Positions 16,467 through 26,940 of a DNA stretch of 34,881 bases are shown here, one piece after another (the first letter of the stretch is position 1; the number at the start of each line of letters is the position of its first letter). The stretch comes from Planctomycetota bacterium (GTDB lineage Bacteria; Planctomycetota; Planctomycetia; Planctomycetales; Planctomycetaceae). Under the pieces are notes generated by a model. That model saw only the letters and a program-made list of their open reading frames with translations, was not told the DNA's origin and ran no database searches. The stretch spans positions 1 to 34,881 of the forward strand of contig JAQBWV010000046.1 of the NCBI GenBank assembly GCA_027624335.1, read 5' to 3'. The position numbers were made by a program, and so were the translations under genes.

Positions 16467-19400
16467 TCAGTCGACGTAGAGAAACTCGTTTGAGTTCAGC
16501 AGAACGTGACAGAGATCCGTGAGCGAATTCAGATCCAGTCCGCTTTCAGATCGGGCGTTCGACGTGGCGATCTTCAAGTGGTTCGCTGCTGTGGACTGGT
16601 CGCGGCCGGGTGAGTCGGGTGAGTCAAAGTTCCAGAAGCCGGAGATGTCGCGGTGGACTCCGCCGTTGATCAACAGCTGCTCTGAAGTCAGCCGTGCCCG
16701 CGAGACTCGCACGTTATCAATCAAGCCGTCCCAGCGGCTTCGTCGACTGCCGTCGCGATCGCCGATCACCAGGCTCAAGCTGGAAGCAAAATCGCCTCGC
16801 ACCTTGTGAGGAACGCTCGCCGTCTGCACGGGCGAATCCTCTTCGTAGAGATCCTTCAGAAAGAACGTGACGCCCGCGTCGGTCACATCGTCGACATCGA
16901 CAGAGACGGCGACGTAGTAAGGGCGGTTCAGTTCGGGTCGAAGATTGGACGCGATGACTTCATAAGTGGGCTTGTCGGTGCCGGCAGTCGGAGGGTCGCC
17001 ACCGATGAGTTGCAGGATCAGATTGCGAGGCTTGTAGCCGGACTTTGTGCTCGTGACGCCGAAGTTCCAGCCACGGTGAACGGTATCGCCATTCCACTGC
17101 GAGACAATCGTTCGGACATTAGCATCGGGATACAGCGAGTTTAACTGGATGATGGCCTCGATCGTGAAATCTTCCGTGGGAAGAGATTCGGTGCTTCCAG
17201 TCCGGAAAGTGGAACCGTCTTTGGCGTCAACAACTCTGGCTGCCGAGCTGTTCGTTGCCGCGAGCATCTCGGTACTGGGTGGCGGCAACGCTGGCTCGGC
17301 ACCCTGTCGACTAAGGAAACGCATGGCGGATTCGAGTTCCGCATCGTCAGGAATTCTTCCGAGTGCCAGTTGCCAGGCCGTCTCAGCAGCCAGCTGATAG
17401 GGGCTCGCACCGGGGCTGCGGTTCTTTGCGACAGTCTGGTCGACACGTTTCGAAAGCCCTCTGGCCCGGTCCAGAATCCACTGACCATTGATCATCAGCA
17501 ATGACTGCGTGGGAGTGGTCGTGACATCCCGCTGGGCGGTGCTGTTGAATCCGTCGGCAACGTCAAACACCTTCAACATGGGATCAGGAGAGTTGCGCAG
17601 CACTCTGGTATAGATCGACCTTCGCGGAGTTGTCGCGGCGACTGCGGGGCCGCCAGCTTTGGAATCGAGTTCTCCGGAAGCGGAGAGAATGGCATCTCGA
17701 ATCTGCTCGGCCGCCAGACGCCTGACGTCCCATCTCCAGCGCAATCGGTTGAGCGGGTCGATCAGCGAAATCCGCTTCGCTTCCGGGTGCGATGCCGCCT
17801 GGCGATACGTCGCTGAAAGCAGGATCAGTCGATGGAGGGCTTTGAAGCTTTGTCCGTTGTCGACGAAGTTGCTGGTCAACCAGTCGAGCAGTTCCGGATG
17901 GCTCGGCGATTCACCCAGGTGGCCGAAGTCGCTGGATGTTTCGACGATTCCCGAACCGAAGTGGTACTGCCAGATTCGATTGACAATGACCCGTGTGGAG
18001 AGCGGATTGGCGGGATCGGTCAGCCAACGTGCCAGTGCGGCTCGGCGACCGGTTGACTGTGGGGCGGATTCCAGGCGTACGATTTCGGTCGGTTGAGAAT
18101 CCAGTACGCTGAGTTTTCCTGGCAGGATGTCTCGTTTGTTTCGGTCGTCGGGGATGAAGGTCGTCGCGGGTGAAGGTCCGGCGTCGGTGACGGTGAGAGA
18201 AACTGGAAACGGTGCCGGTTTGAGATGGTCGAACTTTTCCAGTTCCTTGTTGAGTTCGTCGACCGTTTTCTGGTCGTCTTCCTTGAGCTTCATGCGGTCG
18301 TATTCGAAGTCGATCTGTCGCTGCACGAGATTCATGAGTTGTCGCTCGAGAGCGGTCCACTGGGCGGTCGGGCGCAGTTCAATTTCGCGGACATCCGGCG
18401 GGAACTTTTCGACTGCCGACTGCCGTTGTTTTTTCATGTAAGGAGCTGTGATGGCGGCCAGCTTATCTCTCAATTCCTGCGTCGCTGCTTCCCATTTGGC
18501 CTGACGTTCTGTGAATGCGGATTTCTCGTCCGGCGTTGCGAGAGCGATGTCGTCACGTGGCTCGATCGAGGAGAAGAATGCCTGGAGCCGAAAATAGTCT
18601 TTTCGCAGAATAGGGTCGAATTTGTGATCGTGACACTTCGCGCATCCGATGCTCAGCCCGAGAAACGCTTCGCCGGTGATGTCGGTCAACTCGTCGATGA
18701 TCGCCTGCCAGTGACCGCGCACGTCTCGCTGGTTGTATTCATAGAGGTACAGCCGCCAGTACGCAGTGGCCACGATGGCGTCAGGGTTGTCCGGATCGAG
18801 TTCGTCGCCGGCGATCTGTTCCCGCACGAACTGATCGTAAGGCTTATCGTTATTGAATGCCTGAATGGTCCAGTCACGGTAGCGCCACATGTCCTCGCGG
18901 TAACCGTCCGCGCGGTAACCGTCGGATTCTGAGTAGCGAACCAGGTCCAGCCAGTGTCGGGCCCAGCGCTCGCCATAGTGTGGGCTGTCCAGGAGCTGGT
19001 CGATCAGTTTTTCGTACGCGTCAGCGGAGTTGTCGTTGACGAAGGCTGCGATTTCTGCAGCACTCGGCGGGAGGCCGATCATGTCGAAGTAGAGCCGACG
19101 GATCAGTGTGTGGCGATCTGCTTCTGCAGCCGGTGAGAGATCGCTCTCGCGAAGTCGCTGAACAATGAACTGGTCGATTTCGTTCCGCGACCAGCCACTG
19201 GAGTCGGTGTCAGGAACCACAGGTTTTGTGACCGGCTGAAACGCCCACCACTGGCGGTCGGTGTCGGTGATTTCCGAGACGGTCGGTGTCTCGTCGCGCA
19301 GGACGGCGTCGTGCGCCGGCCAGAACGCTCCGTCAGCGATCCACTGCGTCAGCAGAGCAATCTCCGCTGCTGGAAGCTTGCCGCTGGGAGGCATCTCGAA

Positions 19401-19751
19401 CGATTCCCAGCGAATAGCCTCGACCAGCAGACTTTCTTCGGGTTTACCAGCGATCAGCGCGGCTCCTGATTCGCCGCCGTTAAGAATCGTGCTCAGCGCG
19501 TCCACACGGAGTCCGCCGCTTTGCTTCTCTTTGCCATGACATTTGAAACAGCGAGCGGCCAGTAGCGGTCGGATCTTCGTCTCGAAGAATTTGGTTTTCG
19601 CCGCCGCGTCTGAGGATTCGAGTTGCAATTTCTCAGCTTCAGCGGACTGTGCCGGGGCTGGCTGTGCAAGGAGAGTCATGGACAGTGCGCCGAGCCATAT
19701 CAGCAAACGCAGAGTTGTCAGACGCGACGCTGTTCGAGAGTGAGCTGTCAT
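16467..19751 (-). CDS. PSCyt1-DUF1549-DUF1553 (PSD1) planctomycete cytochrome-type protein with inserted LamG-like domain
   Basis: A 1094-residue exported protein of the family greatly expanded in planctomycetes. A signal peptide (about 1-37) is followed by a PSCyt1 domain with CFKCH (68-72), DUF1549/PSCyt2 (about 165-400) with a second CAKCH (370-374), a long coiled helical linker (405-510), and DUF1553/PSD1 (about 565-815) including NRIWQYHFG and DFGHLGE. A concanavalin/LamG-like beta-sandwich (about 835-1045: FTIEAIIQL, WNFGV, RWDGLIDNVRVSRARL, GFWNFD) then interrupts the PSD1 end. The conserved tail LCHVLLNSNEFLYVD closes the protein. ATG 19751 is preferred over an upstream GTG at 19847 because it places the signal peptide at the terminus. 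The family is linked to polysaccharide degradation; the usual DUF1501 partner gene is absent beside it. Confidence 0.93.
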   Translation of the reverse strand: MTAHSRTASRLTTLRLLIWLGALSMTLLAQPAPAQSAEAEKLQLESSDAAAKTKFFETKIRPLLAARCFKCHGKEKQSGGLRVDALSTILNGGESGAALIAGKPEESLLVEAIRWESFEMPPSGKLPAAEIALLTQWIADGAFWPAHDAVLRDETPTVSEITDTDRQWWAFQPVTKPVVPDTDSSGWSRNEIDQFIVQRLRESDLSPAAEADRHTLIRRLYFDMIGLPPSAAEIAAFVNDNSADAYEKLIDQLLDSPHYGERWARHWLDLVRYSESDGYRADGYREDMWRYRDWTIQAFNNDKPYDQFVREQIAGDELDPDNPDAIVATAYWRLYLYEYNQRDVRGHWQAIIDELTDITGEAFLGLSIGCAKCHDHKFDPILRKDYFRLQAFFSSIEPRDDIALATPDEKSAFTERQAKWEAATQELRDKLAAITAPYMKKQRQSAVEKFPPDVREIELRPTAQWTALERQLMNLVQRQIDFEYDRMKLKEDDQKTVDELNKELEKFDHLKPAPFPVSLTVTDAGPSPATTFIPDDRNKRDILPGKLSVLDSQPTEIVRLESAPQSTGRRAALARWLTDPANPLSTRVIVNRIWQYHFGSGIVETSSDFGHLGESPSHPELLDWLTSNFVDNGQSFKALHRLILLSATYRQAASHPEAKRISLIDPLNRLRWRWDVRRLAAEQIRDAILSASGELDSKAGGPAVAATTPRRSIYTRVLRNSPDPMLKVFDVADGFNSTAQRDVTTTPTQSLLMINGQWILDRARGLSKRVDQTVAKNRSPGASPYQLAAETAWQLALGRIPDDAELESAMRFLSRQGAEPALPPPSTEMLAATNSSAARVVDAKDGSTFRTGSTESLPTEDFTIEAIIQLNSLYPDANVRTIVSQWNGDTVHRGWNFGVTSTKSGYKPRNLILQLIGGDPPTAGTDKPTYEVIASNLRPELNRPYYVAVSVDVDDVTDAGVTFFLKDLYEEDSPVQTASVPHKVRGDFASSLSLVIGDRDGSRRSRWDGLIDNVRVSRARLTSEQLLINGGVHRDISGFWNFDSPDSPGRDQSTAANHLKIATSNARSESGLDLNSLTDLCHVLLNSNEFLYVD

Positions 19752-20139
19752 TTCGGTTCCGGGATTCAGGAGAGTCGGCGACAATCTCCAGCCACGGTGG
19801 CGACCGGCGCCAAACCACGACTGCTGAAGGTTTGAGTGTACCGTCACGGCCCGCTTTCACGCACCGTGTCTTGTGGCGACCCGATTGATAACCGGACGCT
19901 GGCACGCCAGCGAAGTTTGTCAGGAACTGTCGCCAGACATCCATGAAGGGATCGGGATACGTCTGCGAGTCTGATGACCAATCGGATTGTCCAATACCAA
20001 AGCGAGAGCTTTGACAAGCTAGCCGTAATCTGCGTTCCCTACTACTCTCCTTGATCCGTCACGACGGTGTTTTGCCATCGTGTTGTTGGCCAGCTGACTT
20101 CTTTCAGATTGTCATTCCCCTTCGGAGACTGCGGCGGCG
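19752..20139 (+). other. Divergent intergenic region
   Basis: 388 bases between the divergent PSD1 gene and lhgO, which must hold both promoters. A consensus TTGACA occurs at 20011-20016 but has no -10 element at proper spacing. No RNA gene, terminator or clear operator repeat was seen. Confidence 0.35.
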
Positions 20140-21339: not shown

Positions 21340-21697
21340 TAGGGCAGCTCGTTCATTTCCGGTTCACACCGCTCCATCGGTCGACTCGTGAGAACCTGCC
21401 AATTCGGATCGGACCTTGAGCATTCCGCATGCTGCGGGCATGTGGCAGTTGGAAAGTCGTCGGAATGTGGAAAAAATCCTTCTCCACCTTCCACCGTGGC
21501 GGGTAGACTCGTGGAGCGTTCTTTGTCGCTGCTGTGCTGGTCTGTTTCGAAATCCGGGTTTCAGCGGTTCGGTAGCTCACAGAAGGCAACAGATAACGAC
21601 TCGGGTTTCACCCCGAAACATTCGATTACTAATGATAAAGATGGCGAGCGATCACGTTTCACCATCAGCGGAATCCGCGAATTCGGAGAACACCAGT
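21340..21697 (+). other. Intergenic region upstream of the vWA/STN gene
   Basis: 358 bases with no supported gene. An open TTG-started frame (from 21416) runs into the downstream gene but is Cys/Trp/Arg-rich and lacks a ribosome-binding site, so it is treated as non-coding. A small hairpin, TCGGG/CCCGA, lies near 21600-21615. The promoter of the next gene was not identified. Confidence 0.35.
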
Positions 21698-24331
21698 ATG
21701 CCGTCCCGCACTACTCGCGTCGCAATCATGGGTCTTTCTTTAGCCATAGCGTTTGGCGTTGCACCCGTTGCCAGCGTGAATGCCGAAGAGGCTCCGCAGG
21801 CTCGATTGCTCCAGTACCGTGCCGAATCGGGGGCAACGGTCCAGGCCATACTGATGGACGCTCCTGCATCGGCAGCGACCTCAACAGTTCGAGACCATAT
21901 CGTCCTGTTCGACACATCGGCCAGTCAGAATGGTGGACATCGGACCCAGGCACTGGCCTCTCTGGATGCGTTTCTGGCAGATTTGAGCGACGGCAGCCGG
22001 TTCCAGCTCTTTGCGATTGATGTTGCTCCGGAAGAGCTGACGGAAGGCCTGACGCCGACAGTTGGTGCAAAGGCGGACCGTGCTCGTGCGTTGCTGGCTC
22101 GACGTGCTCCTCTGGGAGCAACCGATCTGGAGCGGGCACTACGAAAGGCTCTGGACGCCGCAAAGTCGGCTCGCAACGCCTCCGTTCTGTATATCGGAGA
22201 CGGCGTGAGTGGACTGCGTTTGATTCCTGCGGAGCGTCTGCAGTCGCTCGTTGACGAGTTCCGTAAGAGTCAGGTTCCCGTAAGCAGTTACGCAATCGGA
22301 CCGCGGCGAGACCTGCAGCTTCTGGGCGTTCTGGCCAACTGGACCGGCGGTGACGTAATTCCTGACGATGGGGAAACCGACGCTCGACAGCTTGGACAAC
22401 AGTTGGCTCGCACTGCAGAGCAGACTGTTGTTTATGTTGCCGATGTTCGCGTCGAGCCTGCGGAAACGAATTTGTTTCCTGAAGTCGGCTTGCCGCTACG
22501 AGAAGACAGGGCGACCGTTTACCTCAGTCGCGGAAGCGCTCCGACCTCAGTCGCCGTTCAGACTTCCTCAGGGAATGTTCACTGGTCAGTCGAAATCGCC
22601 TCCCCCGCCGATGAAAATTCATATCTGGCGACCCTGATGCAGCGGGTCGAGCAGTCGCCAATCGATTCGCCATTCGCTGGCGAGCGAATGCTGGCTGCCG
22701 CGCAGGATGCTTTTGCTCGACGTATCGATCAACTGTCTGCTCTCGGAGATGCCGCGTTGCTGGATCGTGATCTTCGACAGGCCGCGACGTTTGGAATGGC
22801 GCTTCAGGAACTCGATCCTGCAAGTGACGAAGCCCGTCGACTGATCAAAGCGGCTGCAAAGTTTCAGACGGTCAGTCAGGTGACGCAGCCAGTGGACCCG
22901 ACTGCTCCAAGTTCCGATGCGATTACACAGCAGCAGACGGGAAGTCTGATCGCTGAAATCGAAGTTCTGCAGGCCATTAAGGGCCAGCAGTTCCAGGCCA
23001 ACGTCTCACGCACGATTCAGAGAGTGCGAAAAGAGGCCGAGGAGGATCCCGATGCTGCTCTCAGTGAACTGAAGCGGGCGATTGGGGCCGTGAGGGCTGC
23101 CGAAGATATCGATCCTGATCTCCGCATTAGCCTTGCTAAAAGACTGCAGGGAGTCCTTGCCGATGTCAAAGGACAGAAGGAAGTTCGCGAGTTGCGGTCC
23201 ATCCGCGCTCAGGAACGAGTCGCTGCCATTGAAGCACAGAGGCGACTGATTGATGACGTCACCATCGCTGATGATCGGATGGAGCGACTGATTGACAATG
23301 TTCGTTCATTGATCGAAACCGCTTCACATGGTGAGCCGGACAAGTACCTGGAAGCTGAAGCAGTTTCGGAAGAAGCCGTCAATCTTCTGCCAGGGAACGG
23401 TGCGGCAACCGCTGCTCAGGTCGTTTCGGAAGCGAGCGGTCAGCTTTATACCGCCTTCTTCCTCCGCACATTGCGAGCAGACCGGTTTCTCGAAACTCTG
23501 GAACAGGTCGAACGGTCTCACGTTCCGTTCCCGGACGAACCGCCGATCCGCTGGCCACGACCGGAAGTGTGGAAGGCTTTGACCGAACGAAGGAAGCAGT
23601 ACGCCTCGGTTGACCTCCACAAACCAACCGTAGCGGAGCGTCGCATCTCAGCCGCGCTGGACGATCAGACTACGGTCAATTTTGCAGAATTGCCGCTGGT
23701 TGACGCGATACAGTTCCTGTCGCGAACTCACGAGATTCCGATCATCCTCGACATCATCTCGATCGAAGAAGCGGGGCTCCTGGTGGATGAGCCGATCAAT
23801 CTGGTGCTTGCCGGAGTCACGCTCCAAAGTGCCTTGAAGATCATGCTTTCAGACCTCGAACTCACGTACATCATCGAGGATGAAGTCATGAAGATCACGA
23901 CGATCGAAGTGGCCAACGAAAAGCTGTCGACCCGTGTTTACCCTGTGGGAGACCTGGTCGTGCAGTTGAATGCTCTTTCGCTGGGTGGAGGTGCGTCCGG
24001 TGCATTCGGCGGTGGCCAGGGAGGCGGCCAGCAGGGCGGCCAGCAGGGCGGTGGATTTGGTGGTGGTGGTGGTGGTGGATTTGGTGGTGGTGGTGGTGGC
24101 CAGTTTGGCATCGCGCCTCAACCGTTGCCCAAAGGCATGGCCAAACCGAAGGATCAGGAAAACGCGCCGCTGAAGTTGCCGGCTGATCCAGAGTTGCAGG
24201 GCATTCTCGATGGCATACTGAAAGAATCAGCATCAACGGTTCAGGCACCTTTCGCCGGGTTTGCTCAAGTGCAGGATCCCGTTTTTCGCTTTGACAACAA
24301 AGCGATCCAGGAGCTGAAAAAAAAACGGTAG
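21698..24331 (+). CDS. Secreted vWA protein with coiled-coil and secretin-N (STN)-like domain; ends at an A9 run
   Basis: 877 residues from ATG 21698, supported by GGAG nine bases upstream and an immediate signal peptide (1-29). A vWA domain (about 66-250) has DTSAS (Asp72, Ser74, Ser76) at the MIDAS. A long helical region (about 330-640) follows, then a compact domain (about 647-752) containing VNFAELPLVDAIQFLS and VTLQSALKIMLSDLELTYII, which resembles the secretin/TonB short N-terminal (STN) fold. A Gly/Gln-rich stretch (about 761-804) and a short tail ending ELKKKR complete it. The stop follows a run of nine A residues. Reading one base back continues without a stop into the downstream gene, so this may be the first half of one larger protein. 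Function unknown; the architecture suggests an envelope or extracellular protein. Confidence 0.83.
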   Translation: MPSRTTRVAIMGLSLAIAFGVAPVASVNAEEAPQARLLQYRAESGATVQAILMDAPASAATSTVRDHIVLFDTSASQNGGHRTQALASLDAFLADLSDGSRFQLFAIDVAPEELTEGLTPTVGAKADRARALLARRAPLGATDLERALRKALDAAKSARNASVLYIGDGVSGLRLIPAERLQSLVDEFRKSQVPVSSYAIGPRRDLQLLGVLANWTGGDVIPDDGETDARQLGQQLARTAEQTVVYVADVRVEPAETNLFPEVGLPLREDRATVYLSRGSAPTSVAVQTSSGNVHWSVEIASPADENSYLATLMQRVEQSPIDSPFAGERMLAAAQDAFARRIDQLSALGDAALLDRDLRQAATFGMALQELDPASDEARRLIKAAAKFQTVSQVTQPVDPTAPSSDAITQQQTGSLIAEIEVLQAIKGQQFQANVSRTIQRVRKEAEEDPDAALSELKRAIGAVRAAEDIDPDLRISLAKRLQGVLADVKGQKEVRELRSIRAQERVAAIEAQRRLIDDVTIADDRMERLIDNVRSLIETASHGEPDKYLEAEAVSEEAVNLLPGNGAATAAQVVSEASGQLYTAFFLRTLRADRFLETLEQVERSHVPFPDEPPIRWPRPEVWKALTERRKQYASVDLHKPTVAERRISAALDDQTTVNFAELPLVDAIQFLSRTHEIPIILDIISIEEAGLLVDEPINLVLAGVTLQSALKIMLSDLELTYIIEDEVMKITTIEVANEKLSTRVYPVGDLVVQLNALSLGGGASGAFGGGQGGGQQGGQQGGGFGGGGGGGFGGGGGGQFGIAPQPLPKGMAKPKDQENAPLKLPADPELQGILDGILKESASTVQAPFAGFAQVQDPVFRFDNKAIQELKKKR
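24009..24100 (+). repeat. Low-complexity Gly/Gln-coding tandem repeats
   Basis: Within the vWA/STN gene: tandem copies of a GGCGGCCAGCAG-type unit (about 24023-24048), then two copies of a roughly 21-base unit made of GGATTTGGT followed by GGT triplets (about 24049-24096). They encode the Gly/Gln/Phe linker. Such tracts change length easily by slippage. Confidence 0.7.
24309..24325 (+). other. Candidate -1 slippage site: AGGAG then A9
   Basis: AGGAG (24309-24313), CTG, then nine A (24317-24325) just before the in-frame TAG at 24329-24331. In frame 0 the codons are CTG AAA AAA AAA CGG TAG. A -1 shift, or one extra A in the transcript, gives AAA AAA AAA ACG GTA GCC and joins the open frame that ends at 25893. 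An A run with a Shine-Dalgarno-like sequence upstream resembles bacterial programmed-slippage sites such as dnaX, though the spacing here is shorter. A homopolymer-length error in the assembly would look the same. Confidence 0.5.
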
Positions 24332-24372
24332 CCCCAAGTGAATCTGCGGGAAATACGAAGAGTCGGCAGACA

Positions 24373-25893
24373 TTGGAGAGGCTGTCGGAAGCCGCGCGAC
24401 CCGACGCGGATGCCGGGAATTCAGCAAGGCAAAAGGCGGCAAGAGGGTTGGGCGACAGTCGCTCCCAGCCCTCTTCTGCTGCGCAAACTGCAGAGGCGTC
24501 CGGGGAAGTCGGGAGCCCCAGAAGACAGGGCACGTTGGCACCCGATGAGATGTGGTTCGAGTATTTCAGAACTCGGAAGCCATCCGCCAGTGACGTCGTC
24601 CGTTCGGTCGGAAAGTTACATGCCAGAGGCGAGCACGACCAGGTCGTTGCCTTGATCAACGGTGCACTCGCGAATCAGCAGTCGCAACCGTGGATGTTCG
24701 AAGTTCTGGCGATGTCAATGAAGCTCGCCGGTCGCTCCGAAAAGGACATTGAGCGTGCGTTGTTGTCCCGTCTCGACTTCACGACGACCGATGTATCATC
24801 GCTCCTGTTTTCTGCCGCGTTTCTGAAACGGCTCGATGGAAACCAGCAGGCATTGCGACTCTACCAGCAGGCATCGACGATCGATCCGACGCGTCCTGAG
24901 CCCTACATTCTGGCTATGAAACTGGCTCAGGAGATGCATGATGTCGACGTCGTACAATGGGCCTGCTCCGGAATACTGGCTCATGTCTGGACGAAAGATT
25001 TCAAGGCTCGCCATCAGGTGGCGGAAGATGTCGCAACCGATACGGAACTGGAACTCCTGAAGGCCGGTCAGAAAGATCGTGCGGCACAGTTTCGAGCAGC
25101 GATCGGTAACGCGCGACGGCGGGATCTTACAGTTCGTGTCGAGTGGTCCGGTGACGGTGATCTGGATTTGTCGGTGAAGGAACCGTTCCAGACAACTTGC
25201 TCGATGCTCAATCCGATGACCGCATCGGGTGGGATTCTGGTGCATGACGGTTTTGGACCGCAACGCGAGAACTGCTATGAGGAGTATGTTTGCGTGCAGG
25301 CAGCCCCGGGCGAGTATCGGCTCCAGATTGACTATCTCGACGGCACGATCGTGGGGAAGCGTTTTGGAGTGACGATTGTCAGTCACGCCGGCTCGCGTCT
25401 GGAAAAGATCACTCGCCAGACGGTTCGGCTGGACGGTCCGAGCGTCACGATCAATTTCAAACTCGAAGGCGGTCGCCGCAAGCAGCCGAGTCCAGAGCGG
25501 GAGAAACAACCGGAACCCGGCAGTGCCGCTAGAACATCGCGACAGGAACTGATCGCTCAGGTTCGGGGAGTTGCCGGTCGGGCGGGCGATGCTGCACCGG
25601 TCGCAGCTCAGGCCGGGGTCGGGGCCAGAGGAGCAGGGCAGGGCGGCGCACCACAGCCGGGATTTCGATTGCCTGCCGGCGCCTTTACTGCGGGAATCGG
25701 GTTTCAGCCGGTGATTGGATTTATCAACGAGGGAGTCTCATTGAGCGCTTTGGCCGTCGTTTCAGCTGATCGCCGATTCGTGCGGATTTCGGTCGCCCCG
25801 TTCTTCAACACGCTGCTCGAGCTTCAAACCTTCAGCTTTCAGGGCGGAGCAGCTGCCCAGCAGGGTGCAGCGCCTCAGGGCGGCGGCCAATAG
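24373..25893 (+). CDS. TPR-like and DUF2135-like protein, probably the second half of the preceding gene
   Basis: The frame is open from before the previous stop codon; the first candidate start is TTG 24373 and the first ATG is 24550, neither with a ribosome-binding site. Contents of the 506-residue reading: a disordered Ala/Ser/Arg-rich lead (1-55), a helical-repeat TPR-like region (about 75-200; GNQQALRLYQQASTIDPTRP), a beta-rich domain (about 225-350) with VEWSGDGDLDLSVKEP, GGILVHDGFGP and GEYRLQIDYLDG that resembles DUF2135/YfaP, then a Gly/Ala/Gln-rich region and a hydrophobic C-terminal domain (FQPVIGFINEG). There is no signal peptide. The lack of a start and the A9 run upstream argue it is normally translated as an extension of the vWA/STN protein, giving roughly 1400 residues in total. 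Confidence 0.7.
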   Translation: MERLSEAARPDADAGNSARQKAARGLGDSRSQPSSAAQTAEASGEVGSPRRQGTLAPDEMWFEYFRTRKPSASDVVRSVGKLHARGEHDQVVALINGALANQQSQPWMFEVLAMSMKLAGRSEKDIERALLSRLDFTTTDVSSLLFSAAFLKRLDGNQQALRLYQQASTIDPTRPEPYILAMKLAQEMHDVDVVQWACSGILAHVWTKDFKARHQVAEDVATDTELELLKAGQKDRAAQFRAAIGNARRRDLTVRVEWSGDGDLDLSVKEPFQTTCSMLNPMTASGGILVHDGFGPQRENCYEEYVCVQAAPGEYRLQIDYLDGTIVGKRFGVTIVSHAGSRLEKITRQTVRLDGPSVTINFKLEGGRRKQPSPEREKQPEPGSAARTSRQELIAQVRGVAGRAGDAAPVAAQAGVGARGAGQGGAPQPGFRLPAGAFTAGIGFQPVIGFINEGVSLSALAVVSADRRFVRISVAPFFNTLLELQTFSFQGGAAAQQGAAPQGGGQ

Positions 25894-26036
25894 GGAACGA
25901 ACACCGTCATCTGATCGTTTTTCAGGAAGGTCCTGACGAACTCGAAATTGCTGAGCTCGCCCCGGATCTGCCGATTTTCGCACGGCGAACTGGTCGAGAG
26001 ATAAGCGTCTCAATACGATTCGCGCCGGATCCGATG

Positions 26037-26056
26037 GAGCCGTCGCGTGACGGCTC
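26037..26056 (+). terminator. Compact hairpin between the DUF2135-like gene and purQ
   Basis: A perfect 8-bp stem (GAGCCGTC at 26037-26044, GACGGCTC at 26049-26056) with a GCGT loop, 143 bases past the upstream stop and 41 bases before purQ. There is no U-run, so it could be a weak terminator or a leader structure. Confidence 0.35.
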
Positions 26057-26097
26057 TGCGAAGTTCAACGCATTAGCGAAAAGTGTACGTTTTTCCT

Positions 26098-26940
26098 ATG
26101 GCTACGCCCCGAGTCTGCGTTCTCCGAGCACCTGGCACCAACTGCGACCCCGAAACCGCACATGCTTTCGAAATGTGCGGTGCAGAGGCCGAGCGGGTTC
26201 ACCTGTTACGCGTTCTGGAAGACCCGGCCGTGCTGGCTGGATTTCAGACGCTCTGCATTCCCGGTGGATTCAGCTACGGCGATGACATCGGCGCAGGTGT
26301 CATTTTTTCAAGCCATCTTCGAGGTCGATTGTCCGAGGCGATTCGGGAATTTCTGACCGCCGACAAACTCGTCCTCGGAATCTGCAACGGCTTCCAGGTG
26401 CTGCTCAAATCGGGAATTCTGCCCGATGGTGCCGCTGGTATATCGTCCAGCACCGAGGACGACCGCGACGCAACGCTCACCTGGAACGACAACGGCAGGT
26501 ACACATCGTTGTGGGTGCGGCTGGCTAATCTGAGTCGCAATAACGTCTTTCTGCGCGGCATCGATCAGGTTGAAATGCCCATCGCACACGCTGAGGGGCG
26601 GCTTGTCGTGCGTGATCCGTCGATCCTTGAAACATGGCAGGAGAACGGTCAAGCCGCGCTTTGTTATTGCAGCGCGTCAGGGTCTACTTCTGATGGAGTA
26701 GGTGGCGGTGACGCCTCTGGCCAATGGCTGACTCAGAAACTGGACTACCCGGAGAATCCGAATGGCTCCTTTGCGAACATCGCCGGCCTCGGCGACTCGA
26801 CCGGGCGAGTTCTTGGTTTGATGCCACATCCGGAACGATTTATCCACGCCACACAACATCCTGAATGGACTCGAAGGAAGTTACGTGGCGACGGAGACGG
26901 CCTCAAGGTCTTCCGGAACGCTGTCGAGTATTTCGCGTAG
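26098..26940 (+). CDS. purQ: Phosphoribosylformylglycinamidine synthase, glutaminase subunit (PurQ)
   Basis: Class I glutamine amidotransferase that supplies ammonia to PurL in step four of purine synthesis. 280 residues from ATG 26098; a GTG at 26083 adds only five residues. It shows APGTNCDPE (11-19), CIPGGFSYGDDIGAG (53-67), the nucleophile Cys96 in LGICNGFQ, and His244/Glu246 in MPHPERF. At 280 residues it is longer than the ~225-residue short PurQ and similar to the longer form found in several phyla, with extra segments around 110-135 and 190-215. purL and purS are not in the window. The next gene, metG, is 217 bases away. Confidence 0.95.
   Translation: MATPRVCVLRAPGTNCDPETAHAFEMCGAEAERVHLLRVLEDPAVLAGFQTLCIPGGFSYGDDIGAGVIFSSHLRGRLSEAIREFLTADKLVLGICNGFQVLLKSGILPDGAAGISSSTEDDRDATLTWNDNGRYTSLWVRLANLSRNNVFLRGIDQVEMPIAHAEGRLVVRDPSILETWQENGQAALCYCSASGSTSDGVGGGDASGQWLTQKLDYPENPNGSFANIAGLGDSTGRVLGLMPHPERFIHATQHPEWTRRKLRGDGDGLKVFRNAVEYFA

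Follow-up and report, generated by a model that had tools for sequence, protein, structure and literature searches.

Two overlapping frames and the protein they encode

The gene described here lies in a 34.9-kb stretch of DNA, called the window below. Two long frames follow one another at the locus (Table 1). The first ends in CTG AAA AAA AAA CGG TAG, and the frame at −1 to it is open from position 24295 to a TAG at 25891-25893. The two frames overlap by 37 nt, and the run of nine A's (A9) is found within this overlap, downstream of an AGGAG at 24309-24313. The first-pass annotation had proposed that the two frames are joined by a −1 shift at this run, and both the coordinates and the frames were confirmed. 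The window contains no other run of at least eight nucleotides. In the 7.08-Mb genome, exact A9 runs number seven, the one at the junction included, and at most one of the other six falls inside a credible coding sequence. Another A9 of this genome (L158, 2002-2010) reads as T9 on the opposite strand, close to where a peptidase-like ORF of 569 codons encodes an N-terminal hydrophobic stretch. Elsewhere in the window (16467-19847), a planctomycete cytochrome protein with PSCyt1, PSCyt2 and PSD1 domains together with Laminin_G_3 supports the planctomycete origin of the DNA.

Table 1. Features of the locus, with positions in the window and the basis of each assignment
Feature	Position	Strand	Basis
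First frame: secreted vWA/STN protein, 877 aa, short form	21698-24331	+	GGAG SD-like site at 21685-21688; signal-peptide-like N-terminus
vWA domain, MIDAS motif DTSAS	21899-22351	+	Pfam VWA_3, 4.3e-17
STN (secretin N-terminal)-like region	23615-23968	+	likeness to the secretin of the same genome; Pfam STN weak in several relatives
Gly-rich stretch	23981-24121	+	sequence; disordered in the structure model
A9 slippage run (putative)	24317-24325	+	sequence; length kept across orthologous junctions
Stop of the unslipped frame	24329-24331	+	early stop kept among relatives, position variable
TGA closing the third frame	24339-24341	+	early third-frame stops in relatives too
Second frame (−1): C-terminal half of the long form, 522 aa	24325-25893	+	sequence
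TPR helical array	24541-25116	+	model pLDDT mostly >90; TPR profiles in most members; Foldseek TPR matches
Beta-sandwich, DUF2135-like (weak)	25120-25464	+	model; DUF2135 in 7 of 84 members, best E 0.005
Secretin-like C-terminal segment	25675-25839	+	62% identity over 55 aa to the secretin of the same genome

The first half of the protein is composed of a signal-peptide-like sequence, which is also present in relatives, a vWA domain, long helices, the STN-like region and the Gly-rich stretch. The MIDAS motif of the vWA domain is intact, and residues D72-Q77 are invariant or nearly so. According to the structure model, the second half consists of a disordered linker and the TPR array, followed by a beta-sandwich and, at the C-terminus, a beta-hairpin, and in the window gene no signal peptide was found in this half. 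The domains named in the first-pass annotation held to different degrees. The vWA assignment is strong and TPR repeats were recovered by both profile and model, DUF2135 stayed weak, and STN is weak by Pfam but clear when the region is compared with the genome's own secretin. Foldseek returned generic TPR matches for the C part and vWA/Sec23-like matches for the N part, and the matches of both parts gave no function.

The secretin of the same genome (L050, positions 943-3165 of contig C126; PF00263 match, 1.9e-23) resembles the protein in two places. The STN-like region is 30% identical to it over 137 aa, and the C-terminal tail, which corresponds to a barrel-side segment, is 62% identical over 55 aa. 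Unlike a bacterial secretin, however, the planctomycete protein carries vWA, long helical and TPR regions, and a profile search gave no match to the PF00263 Secretin domain in either half. Of the two secretin-related pieces, the short form contains the STN-like region alone and the long form contains both. The presence of these pieces suggests a partner of an envelope secretin. Our best guess, drawn from the homology of the two segments alone, is an envelope protein that would act with the secretin, slippage determining how many short subunits are made relative to long ones. The same secretin-like tail is shared by other large proteins in relatives.

Conservation of the run and of the frames around it

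The source genome is a draft of 481 contigs, and an error therefore had to be weighed first. We read the orthologous junctions of 139 genomes of the same family (f1) and of 28 genomes of another family in the class (f93). The second half was matched in all 150 searched genomes of the first family, which represent 58 genera. Its true homologue nearly always occupied an open frame about 380-660 aa long, a length indicating that it is not fused to the first half. Among the 135 readable junctions of this family, the run was A9 in 128, A8 in four and A10 in three, and when four loci were added exact A9 was present in 132 of 139. In the second family, in which GC content reaches 72%, exact A9 was found in 27 of 28 loci, and the −1 relation was observed in all 26 A9 loci with both frames readable. 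Overall, 159 of the 167 orthologous junctions have a run of exactly nine, 19 of them from single-contig genomes. Chance would hardly place an A9 within a frame overlap of 37 nt, and the observation is settled by the conservation of the run across these junctions. The −1 relation is also retained in the A8 variants G034 and G144 and in the A10 variants G010 and G106, and only two genomes (G075 and G549) combine A10 with a continuous frame.

The 30 nt flanking the run are 32-34% identical between loci; with flanks so diverged, the conserved element is the run itself. The mean share of AAA among local Lys codons is 0.41, and it is 0.2 or lower in seven of the eight genomes of the second family that were tested. 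Under local Lys usage, the occurrence of three AAA codons in 147 of 147 loci has a probability of about 1e-202, a value which, like our other conservation statistics, treats related genomes as independent and gives the scale only. On these comparisons, the run is kept beyond what protein and codon constraint would require.

The frames downstream of the run differ sharply. Between the run and the TPR domain, the second frame comprises 10,139 codons across the loci without a single stop, versus 3.1% and 4.9% of stops per codon in the other frames. The second half is at −1 relative to the first nearly always, and at +1 in a few lineages. The first-pass annotation would have held it against slippage if homologues always existed as two properly started genes, and the two A9 families do not show this arrangement. 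Indeed, no start is conserved in the second frame: of 147 linkers, 26 have an ATG before the domain and 19 have a start with an SD-like site. The unslipped frame reaches a stop at a median of 4 codons past the run, as against 35 at control positions, and within 9 codons in the −1 loci. The third frame is also closed at a median of 4 codons, versus 18 at control positions. Both off-frames are thus closed early, as in Thermus dnaX, a pattern that makes the short product look selected rather than incidental.

Routes into the second frame

We consider it highly probable that the locus is a single gene in which programmed slippage at the A9, most likely by RNA polymerase, gives rise to a short and a long product. 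The idea of a short and an extended product made through slippage at the A run was already present in the first-pass annotation and finds strong support, at the level of sequence, in the comparative data. In the scenario we propose, an mRNA transcribed without slippage (A9) would be translated into the secreted 877-aa protein, which would end just past the run and comprise the vWA domain, the helices and the STN-like region. If RNA polymerase added one A, the resulting A10 mRNA would lead ordinary translation into the second frame, and the long form of about 1,400 aa would gain the TPR array, the beta-sandwich and the secretin-like tail. Transcripts slipped to the third frame would terminate within a few codons. 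Since the second half has neither a start nor a signal peptide of its own, slippage would be its sole evident route to the cell envelope. We infer from these comparisons the slippage itself, its timing during transcription, its efficiency and its role.

Several known systems bear on this scenario. In E. coli, most insertions made by transcription in A/T runs add one nucleotide, and they rise with run length (PMC5574713); the insertion of a single A gives exactly the −1 frame. Baranov et al. reported that, in a large fraction of bacterial genomes, such runs are selected against at length nine (PMC1088944). The dnaX gene of Thermus thermophilus (tau/gamma) likewise has an A9 inside the gene, early stops in both alternative frames and two expected products (PMC5009743, PMC1088944), and its slipped mRNAs are heterogeneous, the off-frames being closed (PMC5009743). 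However, the genomic frame in Thermus encodes the long form and slippage leads to the short one, whereas here the genomic frame encodes the short form and the long one would need slippage; the planctomycete protein is, moreover, a different one and secreted. For the comparison with dnaX made in the first-pass annotation, the transcriptional system of Thermus is a better fit than the ribosomal one of E. coli. In mxiE and spa13 of Shigella and in IS elements, slippage at an A/T run also joins frames and the extended product depends on the slip (PMC5009743). Those genes are plasmid-borne or mobile, whereas the planctomycete gene is present in every searched genome of one large family, and no homologue was found in the plasmids searched.

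Programmed −1 ribosomal frameshifting on A_AAA_AAA, by which the long form would be made from ordinary A9 mRNA, is the explanation that comes closest to slippage by RNA polymerase, and we regard it as rather unlikely. The heptamer is contained in every A9, whatever the register, so that ribosomal slippage would be possible in the −1 lineages, and a reporter cassette with a run of nine A's gave 40% frameshifting in E. coli (PMC3711429). E. coli dnaX shares with the planctomycete gene a −1 relation at an A run and a pair of short and long forms. However, nine A's are conserved and not seven, and the heptamer is insufficient for the +1 lineages, as in genus g4 (see below). The AGGAG upstream of the run in the window, which the first-pass annotation took for a dnaX-type stimulator, does not gain support from the relatives, in which the frequency of SD-like motifs ahead of the run is 12%, versus 6-16% at control positions, and thus shows no enrichment. 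RNA folding upstream and downstream of the run is not stronger than in control windows (mean downstream MFE −15.2 versus −15.9), and an Rfam search of positions 21400-26100 gave no family. In contrast to E. coli dnaX, the planctomycete site thus has no conserved SD-like element or RNA structure, is an exact A9 and not A_AAA_AAG, and is associated with +1 in some lineages. Altogether, the exact length of nine, the use of all three codon registers (119, 14 and 14 among 147 loci), the two shift directions and the lack of an SD or RNA-structure signal speak for transcription rather than the ribosome.

The conservation, frame and start data led us to reject three further explanations, namely independent initiation, phase variation and assembly error. 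Two translationally coupled genes, the second half being reinitiated near the first stop, are very improbable. True separate genes do exist in families f105 and f101 and in genome G041, but they begin with a signal peptide, which the second half lacks here; in addition, the linker is free of stops from the run onward and no conserved start or SD follows the run. Phase variation at the DNA level, in which the genomic run length would toggle the long form, is no better placed. Homopolymeric runs in surface-protein genes are often phase-variable, and the two genomes with an in-frame A10 would agree with such a switch. A contingency locus should, however, vary in length and frame, and nearly all genomes have exactly nine A's and the same off-frame state. 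Least credible of all is a single ORF that was misread during sequencing or assembly, or that recently suffered a frameshift mutation, as the first-pass annotation had also suggested: the draft state of the genome and the proneness of homopolymers to sequencing error speak for it, and it is refuted by the split and the A9 being common to about 160 genomes of two families, the 19 finished single-contig ones included, with diverged flanks and early stops after the run.

Natural variants, evolution and significance

In most other families of the class, the same protein is encoded by one ORF of about 1,330-1,650 aa without the A run. Two families (f105, locus L200; f101, locus L211) have two separate genes, the second of which opens with a signal-peptide-like sequence. 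In one genome of the first A9 family (G041, locus L164), the run is missing and separate genes encode the first half, whereas the second half has acquired a start that resembles a signal peptide. In these three cases the same protein has apparently been split by independent events. Where slippage is absent, the parts are thus either one ORF or two genes, the second having its own signal-peptide-like start, and we count this as support for programmed slippage at the A9. A further variation concerns the direction of the shift. In the three species of genus g4 (L081, L076 and L036), the second half is at +1 after an intact A9, which suggests that the slip direction needed has changed while the run was retained. 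A +1 relation is probable in G025 and G045, in which the path crosses the Gly-rich region, where an unrelated indel could mislead; it is firm only for the three-species genus. Automatic shift calls for G054, G083, G100 and G127 were left out as unreliable, owing to an upstream indel or to contig ends.

In the tree of both halves, the first A9 family (f1) forms a single clade, its sister being a large group in which the gene is mostly fused, and the second (f93) is placed on the other side with the fused families f94, f95 and f97. These positions fit either of two histories: the A9 may be ancestral, with several losses, or it may have evolved twice.

In the openly accessible literature, our searches found neither slippage nor programmed frameshifting reported for this gene or for planctomycetes. 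The GeneTack survey itself included only two planctomycete genomes (PMC3711429). Mechanisms of this kind are known; what is new, as far as we could find, is the gene itself, how deeply the run is conserved and how exactly its length is kept.

What such a device does for the cell can be proposed tentatively. In a secreted, secretin-related protein found throughout the class, RNA-polymerase slippage at an exact A9 might be a fixed means of setting the ratio of short to long forms in an envelope machine. This device could date back to the ancestor of the class and have disappeared through fusion or gene splitting, or could have evolved twice, and its direction may have been switched in some lineages. 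To our knowledge, most sites of transcriptional slippage documented in bacteria concern one gene, a mobile element or a narrow lineage. In the present case, mutation would be expected to break up the homopolymer, yet its length is kept at exactly nine in about 160 genomes from two families, which provides an unusually rich natural data set on the requirements of RNA polymerase slippage. Gene callers will split or truncate the protein in these genomes, and half of a conserved envelope protein is therefore likely to be mislabelled. Finally, fused ORFs, two-gene arrangements, +1 lineages and the variants with A8 or A10 serve as natural controls, which allow direct tests of what the short form does.
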